From Oscillospiraceae bacterium (GTDB lineage: Bacteria; Bacillota; Clostridia; Oscillospirales; Ruminococcaceae), in the NCBI GenBank assembly GCA_009778065.1, contig WRKM01000011.1, positions 1 through 64,000 on the forward strand: DNA of 64,000 bases, read 5' to 3'. Every line of letters starts with the position of its first letter. Positions within the stretch are counted from its first letter, which is position 1. Shown one piece after another: positions 58,461 through 64,000 of this stretch. The position numbers were made by a program, and so were the translations under genes. The notes below the pieces were generated by a model that was not told where the DNA came from, searched no databases, and saw nothing but the letters and a program-made list of their open reading frames with translations.

Positions 58461-59024
58461 CTAAGAGATGATTAAATCTAATTCTGTACTTACACTGTTT
58501 CTGCTTTTAAAATCGGAGCCTTCTTTTTCATATACATGAACTGTTAAAACTGCCTTATACTCGCCTTCGAGCGGGGTACTAAGTAACATAAACTTTCCGA
58601 CATTCTCGGTCGGCGCGATAAAATCCGATACATACAGCTCTTCATCTGTATCCTTTAAGCGAAGCTCAAATCGGACATAAAAGCCGCTGTTTTTCGGGTT
58701 TTGTAACGGGACGTTGAACCACGCTTCGGGTTCGTCCGCATAGACTGTTACGCTTTTGTAACATTCGAGCGGGAAATTAAAGTCTTCGTTTTCCTGCATA
58801 AAGACGATAGCCGAGAGCGGAACCTGCGCGTCTTCTATAGATATGTAGTCCGTATCATCATTTTTATTCACTATACCTTGAAATACAATGATAGCGGAAA
58901 GCGACATAACCGTAACAAGCGATGCAGACAGACTCTGATAGAGAACAAGCCGTTTTCTGCGCTGAAGCTTAATTTCCTCGGAACGACAAATTGCGCGTCT
59001 CGCGATTTCTTTATTGTCGAACAT
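58461..59024 (-). CDS. Membrane-anchored partner of the sigma factor, probable anti-sigma
   Basis: 187 residues. A cytoplasmic N-terminus rich in Arg/Lys and Glu (FDNKEIARRAICRSEEIKLQ, RRKR), one membrane helix (LSASLVTVMSLSAIIVF), then an exported beta-rich domain (FYVRFELRLKDTDEELYV, AVLTVHVYEKEG). It follows the sigma factor gene by 108 bases on the same strand. The role is inferred from layout; no zinc motif is seen. Confidence 0.6.
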   Translation of the reverse strand: MFDNKEIARRAICRSEEIKLQRRKRLVLYQSLSASLVTVMSLSAIIVFQGIVNKNDDTDYISIEDAQVPLSAIVFMQENEDFNFPLECYKSVTVYADEPEAWFNVPLQNPKNSGFYVRFELRLKDTDEELYVSDFIAPTENVGKFMLLSTPLEGEYKAVLTVHVYEKEGSDFKSRNSVSTELDLIIS

Positions 59025-59132: not shown

Positions 59133-59717
59133 TCAGTAGTTAAAGCCGTCTTTTTCGAGGATTCTTTTCAGCGCGGCTTTAGCTCTGAAGGCTAAGTGTT
59201 TTATTTGCTTTTCGCTCTTGTTCATTGCCTTACCCGCCTGTAAATAGCTCATATCTTTAAAGTATAGTAGCTTCAGGACGGTATAATGGTCGTCTTTAAG
59301 TATCTGCATGGCTTCGCGGAGCTGCTGCTTGTTTTCTGTCCGCTCTAAAAAAAATTCGGGTGTATGCTCGTCGTCCGCTTGTGTGTCTGCGATGTCCTCA
59401 TATGTGATATGTTGTCCCTGACCTCGCTCTTTCAGACTTCGGGTCGCTAAGTTTCTCGCTATTGTGAACAGGTATGTCTTGAGCGACGATTTCCCCGCGA
59501 ATTTACCGCCGCCGACCGCGAGCTGTGCGAAGGCTTCTATAGTTAAGTGTTTTGTCTCGTGATAATCACGAACAATGCCGTAAATAAAGCAAGACAGCTC
59601 GTTTTGATATAATTCGACAAGCTCCTCAAAGGCGTTTTCGTCTCCCGAGCGAAAACGGCGATACAGTTCTTCGCCCGATACGGCAGTTTTGTTTTCAGAC
59701 TTTATATCCGGCTTTAT
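59133..59717 (-). CDS. ECF-type sigma factor without ATG/GTG/TTG start (best start AUA)
   Basis: 194 codons from ATA 59717 to TGA 59133-59135. The translation is a normal sigma factor. Region 2: ENAFEELVELYQNELSCFIY, IEAFAQLA, KTYLFTIARNLATRSLK. Region 4: LREAMQILKDDHYTVLKLLY, FKDMSYLQAGKAMNKSEKQI. No ATG, GTG or TTG is in frame between the upstream stop and Met codons deep in region 4. AAAGGGGG lies eight bases before ATA, so AUA start is well placed. Alternatives are a mutated ATG, or an ATT start at 59738. The -10-like TATAAT in AAGTATAATGT lies about 50 bases upstream. Confidence 0.75.
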   Translation of the reverse strand: MKPDIKSENKTAVSGEELYRRFRSGDENAFEELVELYQNELSCFIYGIVRDYHETKHLTIEAFAQLAVGGGKFAGKSSLKTYLFTIARNLATRSLKERGQGQHITYEDIADTQADDEHTPEFFLERTENKQQLREAMQILKDDHYTVLKLLYFKDMSYLQAGKAMNKSEKQIKHLAFRAKAALKRILEKDGFNY

Positions 59718-59867
59718 ATCCTCCGCCCCCTTTACGAAAATATCATACCTTTATACATTATACTTCATTTTAGAACGAAAAGGGGAAAAGGTTTTCAAAA
59801 AATTACCTTTCGTCCTTGCTTTTATGCACATACTTACATATTGTTTACAAATTCTCGCATTTATTTA

Positions 59868-60398
59868 TTACACTTGCACAAAACGGTAGCCCACACCGTA
59901 TTCGGCAACGAGCGTGTACCCGGAGCCGTTTATTTTTTTACGAAGGTTTGACACCGCGACCTTAATGGTGCTTATATTCACGTTCGCTTGACTATTCCAT
60001 ACCTTTTCATATATATATTTCGCGCTTATGGCTTTTCCCTCGTTTTGGGCGAATAACAAAAGCAGAAAAAACTCTTTTTTAGTCAATAATAAGTCGTTAC
60101 CGTCCGAAAATGCCTGTCCGCTGAACAGGTCTATACATAGCTTTCCGCGTATAATTCGTTCCGGGACACGTTCTGCTTTTTCGAGCATTTTTCCGATTCG
60201 CGTAATAAAAACATCATGAAGTACAATACCTTCAATACGTAAATCGCGAGACAGCCGCTCCCGAGCCGCCGTCAAGGTTCCGGCGGTAATCACGTTGTAA
60301 CCGTTTTCGGTAAGGATTCTGCGGTTATTTTCTGAAATATCAGATTCGCCTTCGATGCTCAAAAGAGCTTTTCGGTTTCGGGAAAAGCTACTATCCAT
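59868..60398 (-). CDS. OmpR-type winged-helix regulator with degenerate, shortened receiver
   Basis: 176 residues. The N-terminal 65 residues keep only part of a receiver fold (LLSIEGESDISENNRRILTE, NGYNVITAGTLTAARE), with no acidic pocket; at the phospho-acceptor place the sequence is IVLHDV. The C-terminal half (residues about 80-176) is a complete OmpR/PhoB winged helix: LTKKEFFLLLLFAQNEGKAI, ISTIKVAVSNLRKKI, YGVGYRF. It should bind DNA but not be switched by Asp phosphorylation. It is divergent in function from the kinase genes but on the same strand. Confidence 0.85.
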   Translation of the reverse strand: MDSSFSRNRKALLSIEGESDISENNRRILTENGYNVITAGTLTAARERLSRDLRIEGIVLHDVFITRIGKMLEKAERVPERIIRGKLCIDLFSGQAFSDGNDLLLTKKEFFLLLLFAQNEGKAISAKYIYEKVWNSQANVNISTIKVAVSNLRKKINGSGYTLVAEYGVGYRFVQV

Positions 60399-60450
60399 TA
60401 TTTTTCTCCGTTCACTTTTTCGCGGGTTATTTTATAAAGGATTTTTGTGA

Positions 60451-60792
60451 TTAAATCTCTCTTTTAAGAACGATAGTTAACTCGTCTCCTTCAATTTGCG
60501 CCTCCGCATGGTCGCACATCATACCAATCAGCATCATCTCGCTGTATTCTTCCGAGTTACCCATAAGCTCCCAAAAATCCTGTTCCATCTCCCTTTGGCG
60601 CGGTGCGCTGAGGTATTTTCTCAGCTTTTCTAAGGATTCATCCGAAATCGTTACGGGACTTGCCTTAACCTCGAAGACGTTAGCACTGTCTATCCGTTTT
60701 ATATCGAGATGATAATCCGTCGCACCATACAAGTGGCAAAACGACAAAAGATCGCTCGCCATTTTCATTTTTTTCTCAAATTCAAGCTTCAT
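60451..60792 (-). CDS. Small cytoplasmic protein of unknown function
   Basis: 113 residues; no membrane segment. EFEKKMKMASDLLSFCHLYG, then a beta strand pair (NVFEVKASPVTIS) and an acidic helix (EMEQDFWELMGNSEEYSEMM), and a C-terminal strand DELTIVLKREI. It may be an anti-sigma-like or ATPase-lid-like protein (the end resembles a GHKL-type fold edge), but this is weak. It lies between the DUF1576 protein and the winged-helix regulator. Confidence 0.5.
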   Translation of the reverse strand: MKLEFEKKMKMASDLLSFCHLYGATDYHLDIKRIDSANVFEVKASPVTISDESLEKLRKYLSAPRQREMEQDFWELMGNSEEYSEMMLIGMMCDHAEAQIEGDELTIVLKREI

Positions 60793-60860
60793 TATTATCC
60801 GAAATGTCCTTTCTGTAAAAAAGATAAGTGAAAAAAATTCATTTTCCCCGATTTTGCAGA

Positions 60861-62135
60861 TTAACTTTCAAGCTTATCCTTATCCTTTTTAAAAGTAGAT
60901 AAAAGCGGTAACATGAACATAGCGACAAACCCCGCGGCGAACCCGTTGTTGTATAGGTTTAATCCGCTGTTCATTTCACTTACAAACATAGCTACATTTA
61001 CATGTAAAAATCCCGCAACAGCACCCCAAATCCAGCCGTAATGACCCGAAATAGGCGCGAGTGCCGCCGAAAAGAGGATTGCCGCCACCTTCGAGGGAGA
61101 TGTGAACTCCCATTCGTTTAAATATGCCGAAATAATTGCACCCGCTATAACGGGGACTACATTTCTTAAATGTTTTCCGAAACAGGCGAATCCCGTCATA
61201 GTGAATATTCCCGCGATAGCCACTCCGTTTAGCTGTGCGCCCATTAACAGTACGACCGTAGTCGCGAACGCGCAAAGCACCCCCATATTTATGAATACGC
61301 TGTTTTCATACAGGAAATAATAATCGGTAACCAACCGACCCGAGTGAGTGAGAATCTTCCTGAATCCGCTGATACTCTTTTTAAATCCCCCTGCGAAAAA
61401 TCCGACGCAAACTAAAATAACGGAAACGCTGTATAATATAACAGCTAAAACAAGGTTATTGCCGCTGCTCCAAATATCGGCCGGCTCGATGCTTATTCTG
61501 AAGCTCCGCAGAACCGTCGAAAAAATCACCGCAATCAGTCCGCCCGCGAAACCCATATTATATAGGTTATAACCGCCGTGGATTCTTACCGTATGGGCAG
61601 AAATAGAGGGAAAAATAAAACCGATAACGAACCCGAACAGAATCCCCACCGATATTTCGATTATGCGGGGAAATGTTCCGAGAAAGCCGATTTCACTGAC
61701 TACCGGTGTAAGCGTCGCCACTAAAAGCGCGGCGAGCGAGTAATTAACGAAGGGTTCTCGCTTATATTTGGAAAAAAGCCAAACACCTATCGTAAGCGGG
61801 AGCATATTAAACAAGTTCTTACCGAAAAAGGAGAACCCCGCAGTCAGCCACAGTGCCATTATCGTCGCACCGTTTGGCTTTACCCCCGAAAGCATGAGGA
61901 TTAATATACTGACGAAACCCACGAGCGACACGTTAAGCAATGCCGAACCGACCCCGCCGACCGCTATATAATCGGTAACTAATATTGAACTCGAGGTGAC
62001 GATTTTTAATAAGCCATCCAACAACTCCGATGGCTTTTCTAAAAAGAATGCACACAGAAAAAAACCGAAATTTATCGAAAATAAAACAACGTAAGGTAAG
62101 TAAAACCGTCTGCGAAGGCGGATTTTATTTTCCAC
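60861..62135 (-). CDS. DUF1576 polytopic membrane protein with internal duplication
   Basis: 424 residues, about twelve membrane helices, built of two similar halves. NGATIMALWLTAGFSFFGKN in half 1 matches NGVAIAGIFTMTGFACFGKH in half 2; YNLYNMGFAGGLIAVI matches LNLYNNGFAAGFVAMF. The glycine-rich GFAGG/GFAAG and FGKN/FGKH segments may line a substrate path, as in inverted-repeat transporters. Start overlaps the kinase stop by 11 bases, so the two are coupled. Transport substrate unknown. Confidence 0.75.
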   Translation of the reverse strand: MENKIRLRRRFYLPYVVLFSINFGFFLCAFFLEKPSELLDGLLKIVTSSSILVTDYIAVGGVGSALLNVSLVGFVSILILMLSGVKPNGATIMALWLTAGFSFFGKNLFNMLPLTIGVWLFSKYKREPFVNYSLAALLVATLTPVVSEIGFLGTFPRIIEISVGILFGFVIGFIFPSISAHTVRIHGGYNLYNMGFAGGLIAVIFSTVLRSFRISIEPADIWSSGNNLVLAVILYSVSVILVCVGFFAGGFKKSISGFRKILTHSGRLVTDYYFLYENSVFINMGVLCAFATTVVLLMGAQLNGVAIAGIFTMTGFACFGKHLRNVVPVIAGAIISAYLNEWEFTSPSKVAAILFSAALAPISGHYGWIWGAVAGFLHVNVAMFVSEMNSGLNLYNNGFAAGFVAMFMLPLLSTFKKDKDKLES

Positions 62136-64000
62136 AGAATTCCCCCTTTATGACCTCCTTACATAGCCGTGCGCCGTCTTCGTACTCCATAATCTCCGCC
62201 GCTTTAATAATGTCACAGATTAATTTGCCGTATTTGTCGTATTCGTCATACTCGTCGCAGGAAGAGTTTTCTCTGAGTATGGCGACTTTTTCATCGATTG
62301 CGTCACAATCGCCGATTGAGAAATCACGCGCTAAGACTCGTATTATATCCTCTAATTCTACTAATTCGAGCGGCGATTCGTGTATCGAACCCTCATGGTC
62401 ATCGTCCTCGCGCGGGAGTGCGAGCGAGACCCTCTGTGACAGCCACCTCAGACGGTCGCAGAATCTGCCGTTGTTCTCGTTGCAGAATATTTGATTTTTT
62501 TTGCTTGCCTCTGTTTCGAGTTGTTCGGCAATATCTCCTATTGACTTTGCGCCGATATTATACAAAAGGCTCTTTATGCCGTTTATTACTATAGTGTAGT
62601 TCAAAAAGTCGCCGATTTCCAAATACTCCGTAAGACTATCGGTATAGTCATCCGTTTCATAGGCAAGCCGCCTAAGCAAATTCATGTAAATCTCAATGTT
62701 TGAACCCATATTATTAAGAGCTTCGTTAAAATTAATCTCGGTAATAGCAACAAGCTCTATGGGGAGGGCGGAAAGAATATCGACGTCTTTTTCTTCCGCA
62801 AATCTGCCGAGTGCGGACGTGATTTTATTATGCGGTAACCACTTACTTAAAGCGTTATTTAATTCGTTCGGGTCTATAGGCTTTGCCAAATAGTCGCTCA
62901 TACCCTTGAAAATTAACATATCCCTGACCCCGTGGACTACGTTTGACGTAACCGCAATAATGGGCAGAGACGTATACTTGCCGCCCATCTCTCTGATTCT
63001 TTGGGTGATTTCCACGCCATCCATACCGGGCAAAAACTGGTCCATAAAGACGAGGTCGTATTCCTTTTCCCGAATCATAGTGAGAGCTTTGTATCCGTCT
63101 TTTGCGACATCGGGGCGAATATCGTGGGTCGACAGAATACCTAAGGTGACGGTTACATTTATCGTATTATCCTCGACTAATAAAATTTTAGCGTTTTTAG
63201 CATAAATCTTTTCGCTGACGCCTGTTTCTTTAATCAGGCTTTTATCGCCGACAACCAACGGGAAATAGAGCTTGAAAACGCTTCCGCGTCCTTCTTTACT
63301 GTCGAATTCTATTCTGCCTTTTTGCATTTCCATGAGCCTTTTGCATATGGCGAGTCCGAGTCCCGTGCCTTTTAGTCCGCGGTCTTTGGTAGAATCGGGG
63401 TTCATAAATGCGTCAAACATACGCGGAATATTTTCTTTGCGTATACCTACGCCTGTGTCGCTGACAGTGAATAACAGCGAGCAGCCGCCATCGGGATTTG
63501 CTGTTGTTTCAACCTCTAACGTAACGCCGCCCTCGCGGGTATATTTAACAGCGTTGCTGACGATATTGACTATCACCTGCTTCATTCGGGTTTCATCACC
63601 GTATATGACCTCCGGCAGTTCACGGGATGTAACGCTTTTAAACTCTATACCCTTATGCCGTGCGGAGATTCTTGCCGCTGAGCATATATTTTCCGTAAAA
63701 GTGCTGAGGTTGAAATGCGTGGGTATAAGCTCAAGTCTGCCGGTTTCTATCCGTGAAAAGTCCATCACATCGTTGATGAAATTAATCAGCATGTGGGTGG
63801 TTTCTTTTATATCACGGAAATACCGTGCCTGTGTTTCGCTGAGGTTTTCGGTGTCGAACAGCTCGCTGATGCTGATAATAGCGTTCATGGGTAACAGCAT
63901 TTCGCGAGTCATACGGGTGAGAAATTCGCTCTTTAAGCTGACCGCCGCTTCTACTCTCCTGTTTGTTTCAGCAAGGTCGGCGGCGCGTTCGATTGCACGG
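62125..64000 (-). CDS. Hybrid histidine kinase (partial), with both phospho-histidines replaced
   Basis: The gene is open to the window edge, so the N-terminus is missing. In order: a HisKA helix SEFLTRMTREMLLPMNAIIS (where the conserved His of SHEIRTP is Arg), HATPase with NIVSNAVKYT (N box), DTGVGIRKENI (G1) and GTGLGLAICKRL (G2), a receiver with VEDN, FMDQFLPGMDG (Asp kept) and LAKPID (Lys kept), and a C-terminal HPt-like helix bundle. There INGIKSLLYNIGA has Asn at the usual His. It likely binds ATP and has a receiver that can be phosphorylated from elsewhere, but cannot itself relay phosphate by the usual His residues. It overlaps the DUF1576 gene. Confidence 0.85.
   Translation of the reverse strand, partial: RAIERAADLAETNRRVEAAVSLKSEFLTRMTREMLLPMNAIISISELFDTENLSETQARYFRDIKETTHMLINFINDVMDFSRIETGRLELIPTHFNLSTFTENICSAARISARHKGIEFKSVTSRELPEVIYGDETRMKQVIVNIVSNAVKYTREGGVTLEVETTANPDGGCSLLFTVSDTGVGIRKENIPRMFDAFMNPDSTKDRGLKGTGLGLAICKRLMEMQKGRIEFDSKEGRGSVFKLYFPLVVGDKSLIKETGVSEKIYAKNAKILLVEDNTINVTVTLGILSTHDIRPDVAKDGYKALTMIREKEYDLVFMDQFLPGMDGVEITQRIREMGGKYTSLPIIAVTSNVVHGVRDMLIFKGMSDYLAKPIDPNELNNALSKWLPHNKITSALGRFAEEKDVDILSALPIELVAITEINFNEALNNMGSNIEIYMNLLRRLAYETDDYTDSLTEYLEIGDFLNYTIVINGIKSLLYNIGAKSIGDIAEQLETEASKKNQIFCNENNGRFCDRLRWLSQRVSLALPREDDDHEGSIHESPLELVELEDIIRVLARDFSIGDCDAIDEKVAILRENSSCDEYDEYDKYGKLICDIIKAAEIMEYEDGARLCKEVIKGEFCGK

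Follow-up and report, generated by a model that had tools for sequence, protein, structure and literature searches.

We analysed a hybrid histidine kinase (HK) gene at the end of a 64,000-nucleotide stretch of DNA from an Oscillospiraceae bacterium (assembly GCA_009778065.1), referred to here as the window, which covers positions 1 to 64,000 of an 89-kb contig (WRKM01000011.1) in a genome of 2.55 Mb. At the level of sequence, the encoded protein combines a 7TM-DISM sensor, intact ATPase motifs and a complete receiver, and it carries a phospho-accepting His in neither its HisKA nor its HPt domain. Pseudo-histidine kinases are already a known kind, represented by DivL, RcsD and RetS. RetS of Pseudomonas aeruginosa, which modulates GacS, is built on a 7TM-DISM sensor, DivL is not known to have a receiver or an HPt domain, and AHP6 of Arabidopsis has Asn in place of the phospho-His. 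Pseudo-histidine kinases have been defined by the absence of at least one HK function, and they can remain in a signalling network (PMC12632262). RetS cannot autophosphorylate; it accepts phosphate from GacS on its second receiver (PMC5992135). RetS and GacS form a mixed dimer, and the GacS HPt receives phosphate in trans from LadS (PMC12189002). The His-less HisKA core of DivL is kept as a binding module (PMC4211667), and the pseudokinase ChrS, in which the broken part is the ATPase domain, heterodimerises with HrrS (PMC9491836).

The window kinase resembles RetS in its 7TM-DISM sensor, hybrid kinase layout and receiver, and the lack of autophosphorylation described for RetS (PMC5992135) would follow in the window kinase from the missing His. 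RetS, however, keeps its HisKA site, has lost the G-boxes of its ATPase domain and carries two receivers, whereas the window kinase shows the opposite pattern, with one receiver and a pseudo-HPt domain. With its G-boxes kept and its His lost, it may work like RetS but is no RetS, being loosely a mirror image. With DivL of Caulobacter it shares the retention of HK motifs save the His, as well as a substitution conserved across orthologues (PMC4211667); DivL differs in having Tyr (Ala in one case) for the His and in its PAS sensors. RcsD of the Rcs phosphorelay likewise combines a pseudo-kinase part with an HPt domain in a single polypeptide, but the RcsD HPt keeps its His and carries phosphate (PMC3762810), whereas that of the window kinase is His-less. 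AHP6 is also an HPt without the phospho-His and acts by competition (PMC6963811), although it is a stand-alone plant protein and not a domain within a hybrid kinase.

In the full protein Pfam recognized HATPase_c, Response_reg, HisKA and 7TMR-DISM_7TM; residues 1-439 are encoded beyond the window, in which direction the gene continues to a start at contig position 65316. The H-box reads EFLTRMTREMLLPMNAI, with Arg (codon CGC) at residue 471, and the HPt motif reads YTIVINGIKSLLYNIGA, with Asn (codon AAC) at residue 912. The Thr that normally stands at the +4 position of HisKA has a phosphatase role, and it is replaced by Leu in the window kinase. All five active-site residues of the receiver are present (Table 1). 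No Hpt match was returned by Pfam for the window kinase, and weak ones were returned for two of the seven orthologous domains. When a profile of these seven domains was compared with ten Pfam-recognized HPt domains using hhalign, the two aligned over 115 columns with a probability of 99.7% and an E-value of 2e-25, and the Asn column fell on the phospho-His. By this profile likeness to PF01627, the region is HPt-derived and His-less. The first-pass annotation had read the HisKA His as replaced by Arg and the HPt His by Asn, with the N, G1 and G2 boxes and a full receiver intact, and each of these points was borne out, the HPt identity through the profile match. Compared with an orthodox H1-D1-H2 hybrid kinase, the protein therefore retains the receiver residues and lacks the His of both HisKA and HPt. 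Judged by its residues, it is a pseudo-histidine kinase, the phospho-His being gone from a conserved HK domain set under selection.

A search of 71 genomes of the genus yielded kinase orthologues in seven, the window genome included; they represent seven species and one syntenic locus. Eleven genomes passed the E-value threshold, four of them with more distant kinases only (35-36% identity); at most 11 kinase candidates were scored per genome, so that misses are possible. A pattern scan across a collection of 84,980 genomes recovered the same six relatives, on the same contigs, and one HPt fragment. This fragment (L146:5828-5984, from the Clostridiales metagenome-assembled genome Ehx436_bin4) lies at a contig end, reads NGVKSLLYSIGAK, also has Asn, and is preceded by a frame that looks broken. 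The isolate names of the six related species, all Oscillospiraceae metagenome-assembled genomes, suggest a termite-gut habitat.

Listed in the order own genome, G053, G027, G023, G012, G017 and G020, the residues at the HisKA site are R, H, R, R, -, N and R (four Arg, one Asn and one His among six), and those at the +4 position are L, T, T, T, -, M and T, with Thr kept in four of six and lost in the window protein and in G017. In G012 the kinase is split between the ends of two contigs and the H-box is absent, for which reason HisKA counts are out of six. The acid at +1 is Glu in all six, and the HPt site is Asn in 7/7. Nine residues of the N, G1 and G2 boxes were checked and are intact in all seven proteins save the N-box Asn N584 in G017; N588 is present throughout, as are the G1 and G2 glycines (7/7). 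The receiver acid pair (ED, or DD in G017), Asp, Thr and Lys are likewise kept in 7/7. The H-box of G053 is canonical (MSHEMRTP), so this one member could autophosphorylate. Homologues with His at both positions, which the first-pass annotation had named as counting against its reading, did not appear among the orthologues: every HPt site has Asn and the HisKA His is absent from five of six.

An alpha/beta-hydrolase gene adjoins the kinase in 7/7 orthologue loci, and among 30 hydrolase loci fetched the kinase was found beside the hydrolase in exactly these seven (63 of 71 genomes had a hydrolase match, flanks of up to 1.5 kb were taken, and some loci end at contig ends). Frames are open in all six kinase copies not cut by a contig end, and pairwise identities range from 48 to 82%. 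The ratio of nonsynonymous to synonymous substitution rates (dN/dS) was 0.06-0.16 in the 10 of 21 pairs with a finite dS; these values are rough, many dS estimates being near saturation, and dS was not computable in the other 11 pairs. Among eight segments of the kinase (15 pairs, without G012), the receiver (73%) and HisKA (70%) were best kept and the 7TM region least (42%). By these measures, natural selection of the purifying kind has kept the kinase in several related species. The seven orthologues form a clade with support of 100/100 on a long stem, the distance to the root as drawn being 1.29 changes per column. Asn occupies the HPt site throughout the clade, also in the two members that fall outside the group of five, and the HisKA site changed at least three times on the tree, with codons CGC, CGT, AGG, AAT and CAC. 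Two histories of three changes are equally short: three separate losses with the His kept in G053, or one loss followed by an Arg-to-Asn change and a reversion. The window species shows additional H-box changes. No sister kinase that shares this sensor but retains its His, which would help to polarise the losses, was found in 297 genomes of the family, where ten other genomes gave matches at 24-34% identity.

Absence of the phospho-His is rare. In the window genome 24 of 25 HisKA domains have it, the target kinase being the sole exception, and all 31 HPt stretches read in the 29 non-target loci fetched, out of a longer list of matches, have theirs. A 2025 survey reported the His to be absent from 722 of 76,471 HisKA domains and 90 of 10,312 Hpt domains, 0.9% in each case (PMC12632262); our own product of these rates gives an expected double absence of about 0.008% if the two are independent. 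No hybrid kinase that lacks both the HisKA and HPt His and keeps its ATPase and receiver was found in the literature searched, of which coverage was partial, and the supplement of PMC12632262 may contain some. Nor did the searched literature yield a paper on two-component systems of termite-gut Oscillospiraceae.

Table 1. Coordinates of the kinase, its domains and adjacent genes (window positions unless stated otherwise)
Feature	Positions	Strand	Basis
Pseudo-histidine hybrid kinase, C-terminal 624 of 1063 amino acids	62125..64000	-	Pfam domains and full frame on contig
HisKA (DHp) domain, residues 462-526; Arg471 for phospho-His (codon 63904-63906)	63739..63933	-	
HATPase_c domain, residues 573-687; N, G1, G2 boxes intact	63256..63600	-	Pfam and residue check
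Receiver domain, residues 711-823; E715/D716, D759 (63040-63042), T790, K812	62848..63186	-	
Pseudo-HPt domain, residues 846-970; Asn912 for phospho-His (codon 62581-62583)	62407..62781	-	
DUF1576 membrane protein, 424 amino acids, two repeats	60861..62135	-	Pfam
P0003, 113 amino acids, family unknown, after DUF1576	60451..60792	-	
P0002, OmpR/PhoB-type winged-helix protein, receiver internally truncated	59868..60398	-	
P0005 pseudo-receiver, 143 amino acids, directly upstream of kinase	contig 65316-65747	-	outside window

On the minus strand the gene order is P0005 (beyond the window), the kinase, the DUF1576 protein, P0003 and the OmpR-type P0002. The kinase gene shares 1 base with P0005 and, at its other end, overlaps the DUF1576 start by 11 bases. 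The operon from P0005 to P0003 is kept in five species (own, G053, G027, G023 and G012), and with it the coupling of kinase and DUF1576 that had been noted from the window, which is thus conserved in five of seven. P0005 matches Pfam Response_reg (E 1e-9); its acid pair is changed to His-Asn or His-Ser in 5/5, its Asp and Thr are kept in 5/5, and its Lys is kept in two and lost in three of the five. With these key residues missing, P0005 is by sequence a pseudo-receiver. It may be compared with Osp of Rhodobacter sphaeroides, a single-domain receiver-like protein that acts on and inhibits the hybrid kinase CckA (PMC9430884); the target CckA is active, however. In G053 the stretch ahead of the P0005 orthologue (L051:7220-7430) holds in-frame short repeats of VKKGLYEN, in two cases followed by KFKTKY..., and similar stretches precede other genes of the G053 contig and of L053; as a guess, they may represent the in-frame translation of ribosome-binding-site leaders that occur repeatedly.

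The DUF1576 protein matches PF07613 with 339.9 bits against a cut-off of 25. A search of 149 genomes gave relatives in 24, the window genome among them (two of the 24 weak, with internal stops); a further 14 DUF1576 loci were read, and none contained a relative of the kinase. For P0003, similar genes were found in 10 of 295 genomes of the order, again counting the window genome and with two weak cases; at each of the seven other strong loci that were read, a neighbouring gene is DUF1576-like, as recognized by eye. These pairings extend to other genera and families of the order (L131-L137, L059 and L062). The pairing elsewhere points to a probably older pair that joined the pseudo-kinase in the window lineage, and suggests that these two genes together make up a membrane system of unknown function. 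A sequence search among solved structures gave no credible relatives of DUF1576 or of the HPt domain, and DUF1576 was named by no paper in the literature searched. The outer, early-branching kinases of G017 and G020 lack P0005, DUF1576 and P0003 as neighbours and are about 80-90 amino acids shorter at the C-terminal end, with the His already gone at both sites; the losses would therefore have come before, or independently of, the partner genes.

Our favoured reading, with a probability of roughly 0.5, is that of a conserved pseudo-histidine hybrid kinase: it would bind active kinases, and its receiver would accept or sense phosphate supplied by other kinases. No His-Asp-His relay would run within the kinase itself. 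The signal from the 7TM sensor would reshape the HisKA-ATPase dimer, the kinase would pair with or dock to the cell's active hybrid kinases, and the intact receiver could take phosphate from these partners or read the phosphate on them, for which the RetS 'siphon' is a precedent. The pseudo-HPt domain and P0005 may provide surfaces for binding and perhaps compete as the plant pseudo-HPt AHP6 does, and the output would reach DUF1576 and P0003 by contact or through the network. That seven species keep a perfect receiver although the protein's own donor sites have disappeared suggests a phosphate donor in trans, and the retention of all five residues in 7/7 implies that phosphorylation of the kinase still matters, presumably from outside. 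It is this, with the precedents of RetS, DivL and AHP6, that favours a modulatory pseudo-kinase charged by other kinases. The first-pass annotation had argued that the system signals without phosphorelay; this holds for the protein in isolation and probably fails for its receiver, and a complete absence of phosphorelay goes too far because the receiver is strictly conserved and G053 keeps its HisKA His.

Several points weigh against this reading. No partner kinase was identified, and RetS lacks the opposite part, the ATPase boxes. The HisKA loss is not universal, G053 having the His (and also Ile for the G2-box Thr). Thr at +4 in four of six orthologues means that phosphatase activity may remain in some members, although this Thr is lost in the window protein and G017. 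H534, in the HisKA-ATPase linker, and H731, in the receiver, are the only invariant His residues of the C-terminal part; neither lies at a known phosphorylation site, yet their invariance makes an unusual phospho-site possible. Finally, the absence of the partners beside the early-branching kinases indicates that they were not needed for the original pseudo-kinase role.

A tentative variant goes further: with both kinase His residues removed and the receiver Asp kept, the protein would be a phosphate-reading receptor subunit that, together with P0005, controls DUF1576 by contact and without a DNA-binding output. Less probable than the favoured reading is a working enzyme subunit: the protein would heterodimerise with a kinase that has its His, and would phosphorylate the His of that partner through its own intact ATPase domain. 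The N, G1 and G2 residues, kept in 7/7 save one N-box Asn in G017, fit such a trans-acting half and set it apart from RetS (PMC5992135), but no partner is known and sequence does not distinguish ATP binding from phosphotransfer. We consider it unlikely that the pseudo-HisKA region works in reverse, sensing the phosphorylated form of a response regulator or receiver. DivL, which keeps its boxes without the His and binds DivK~P (PMC4211667), offers a model for this, and the single-domain receiver-like P0005 is encoded directly upstream in five of seven; P0005, however, lacks the acidic pair in 5/5 and is unlikely to be phosphorylated. DivL, moreover, is not known to have a receiver or HPt domain of its own.

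More doubtful again is a phosphorelay in decay, in which HPt function was lost first, the HisKA His drifted repeatedly, and the protein survives for a sensor, receiver or dimer role or is dying. The three or more HisKA-site changes with their differing codons, the extra H-box changes in the window species and the apparently frame-broken L146 fragment would all be expected of it, but purifying selection, the best-kept standing of HisKA and receiver, and open frames in the six uncut copies speak otherwise. A recent mutation or assembly error in one genome needs a single base change for His to Arg (CAC to CGC) and was rejected, already refuted by the non-His residues at the same sites in other genomes.

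The OmpR-type P0002 had been counted in the first-pass annotation as a third loss in the system, with a shortened receiver and no acid pocket. The shortening is real, about 50 amino acids being missing inside the receiver relative to four aligned full-length relatives out of the seven nearest, and Pfam detects no receiver in P0002; the acid pocket is nearly absent, the pair reading E-G. P0002 as a conserved module partner was rejected, since it adjoins the kinase in the window genome only: no homologue was present among the open reading frames of the other kinase loci read, and its best relatives are frames of 223-248 amino acids on other contigs. P0002 is a real gene, but it looks separately truncated and probably lies outside the conserved module, and it should not count as a third loss. 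The third degenerate part of the module is instead the upstream P0005, a second degenerate receiver, which lay beyond the sequence available to the first-pass annotation.

Further along, window positions 59133-59750 (minus strand) hold a frame of 205 amino acids from stop to stop that matches Pfam Sigma70_r2/r4 and resembles an extracytoplasmic function (ECF)-type sigma factor. It has no in-frame ATG, GTG or TTG that would give at least 60 amino acids, and its homologues mostly align from residue ~22-28; a rare start codon, an assembly error or a dead gene may account for this. Directly after it, positions 58461-59024 (minus strand) encode a protein of 187 amino acids with one likely membrane helix (by eye) and no Pfam match, perhaps an anti-sigma partner.

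Proteins with a missing phospho-His are rare and few are understood. The seven orthologues constitute a small natural series, in which the HPt His is gone from 7/7, the HisKA site varies and the receiver is kept in 7/7. With such a series one can test which phosphorelay component is the first to become dispensable, and what role is left to a receiver that its own kinase cannot supply. The locus also ties DUF1576, a membrane family of unknown function, to a signalling protein.

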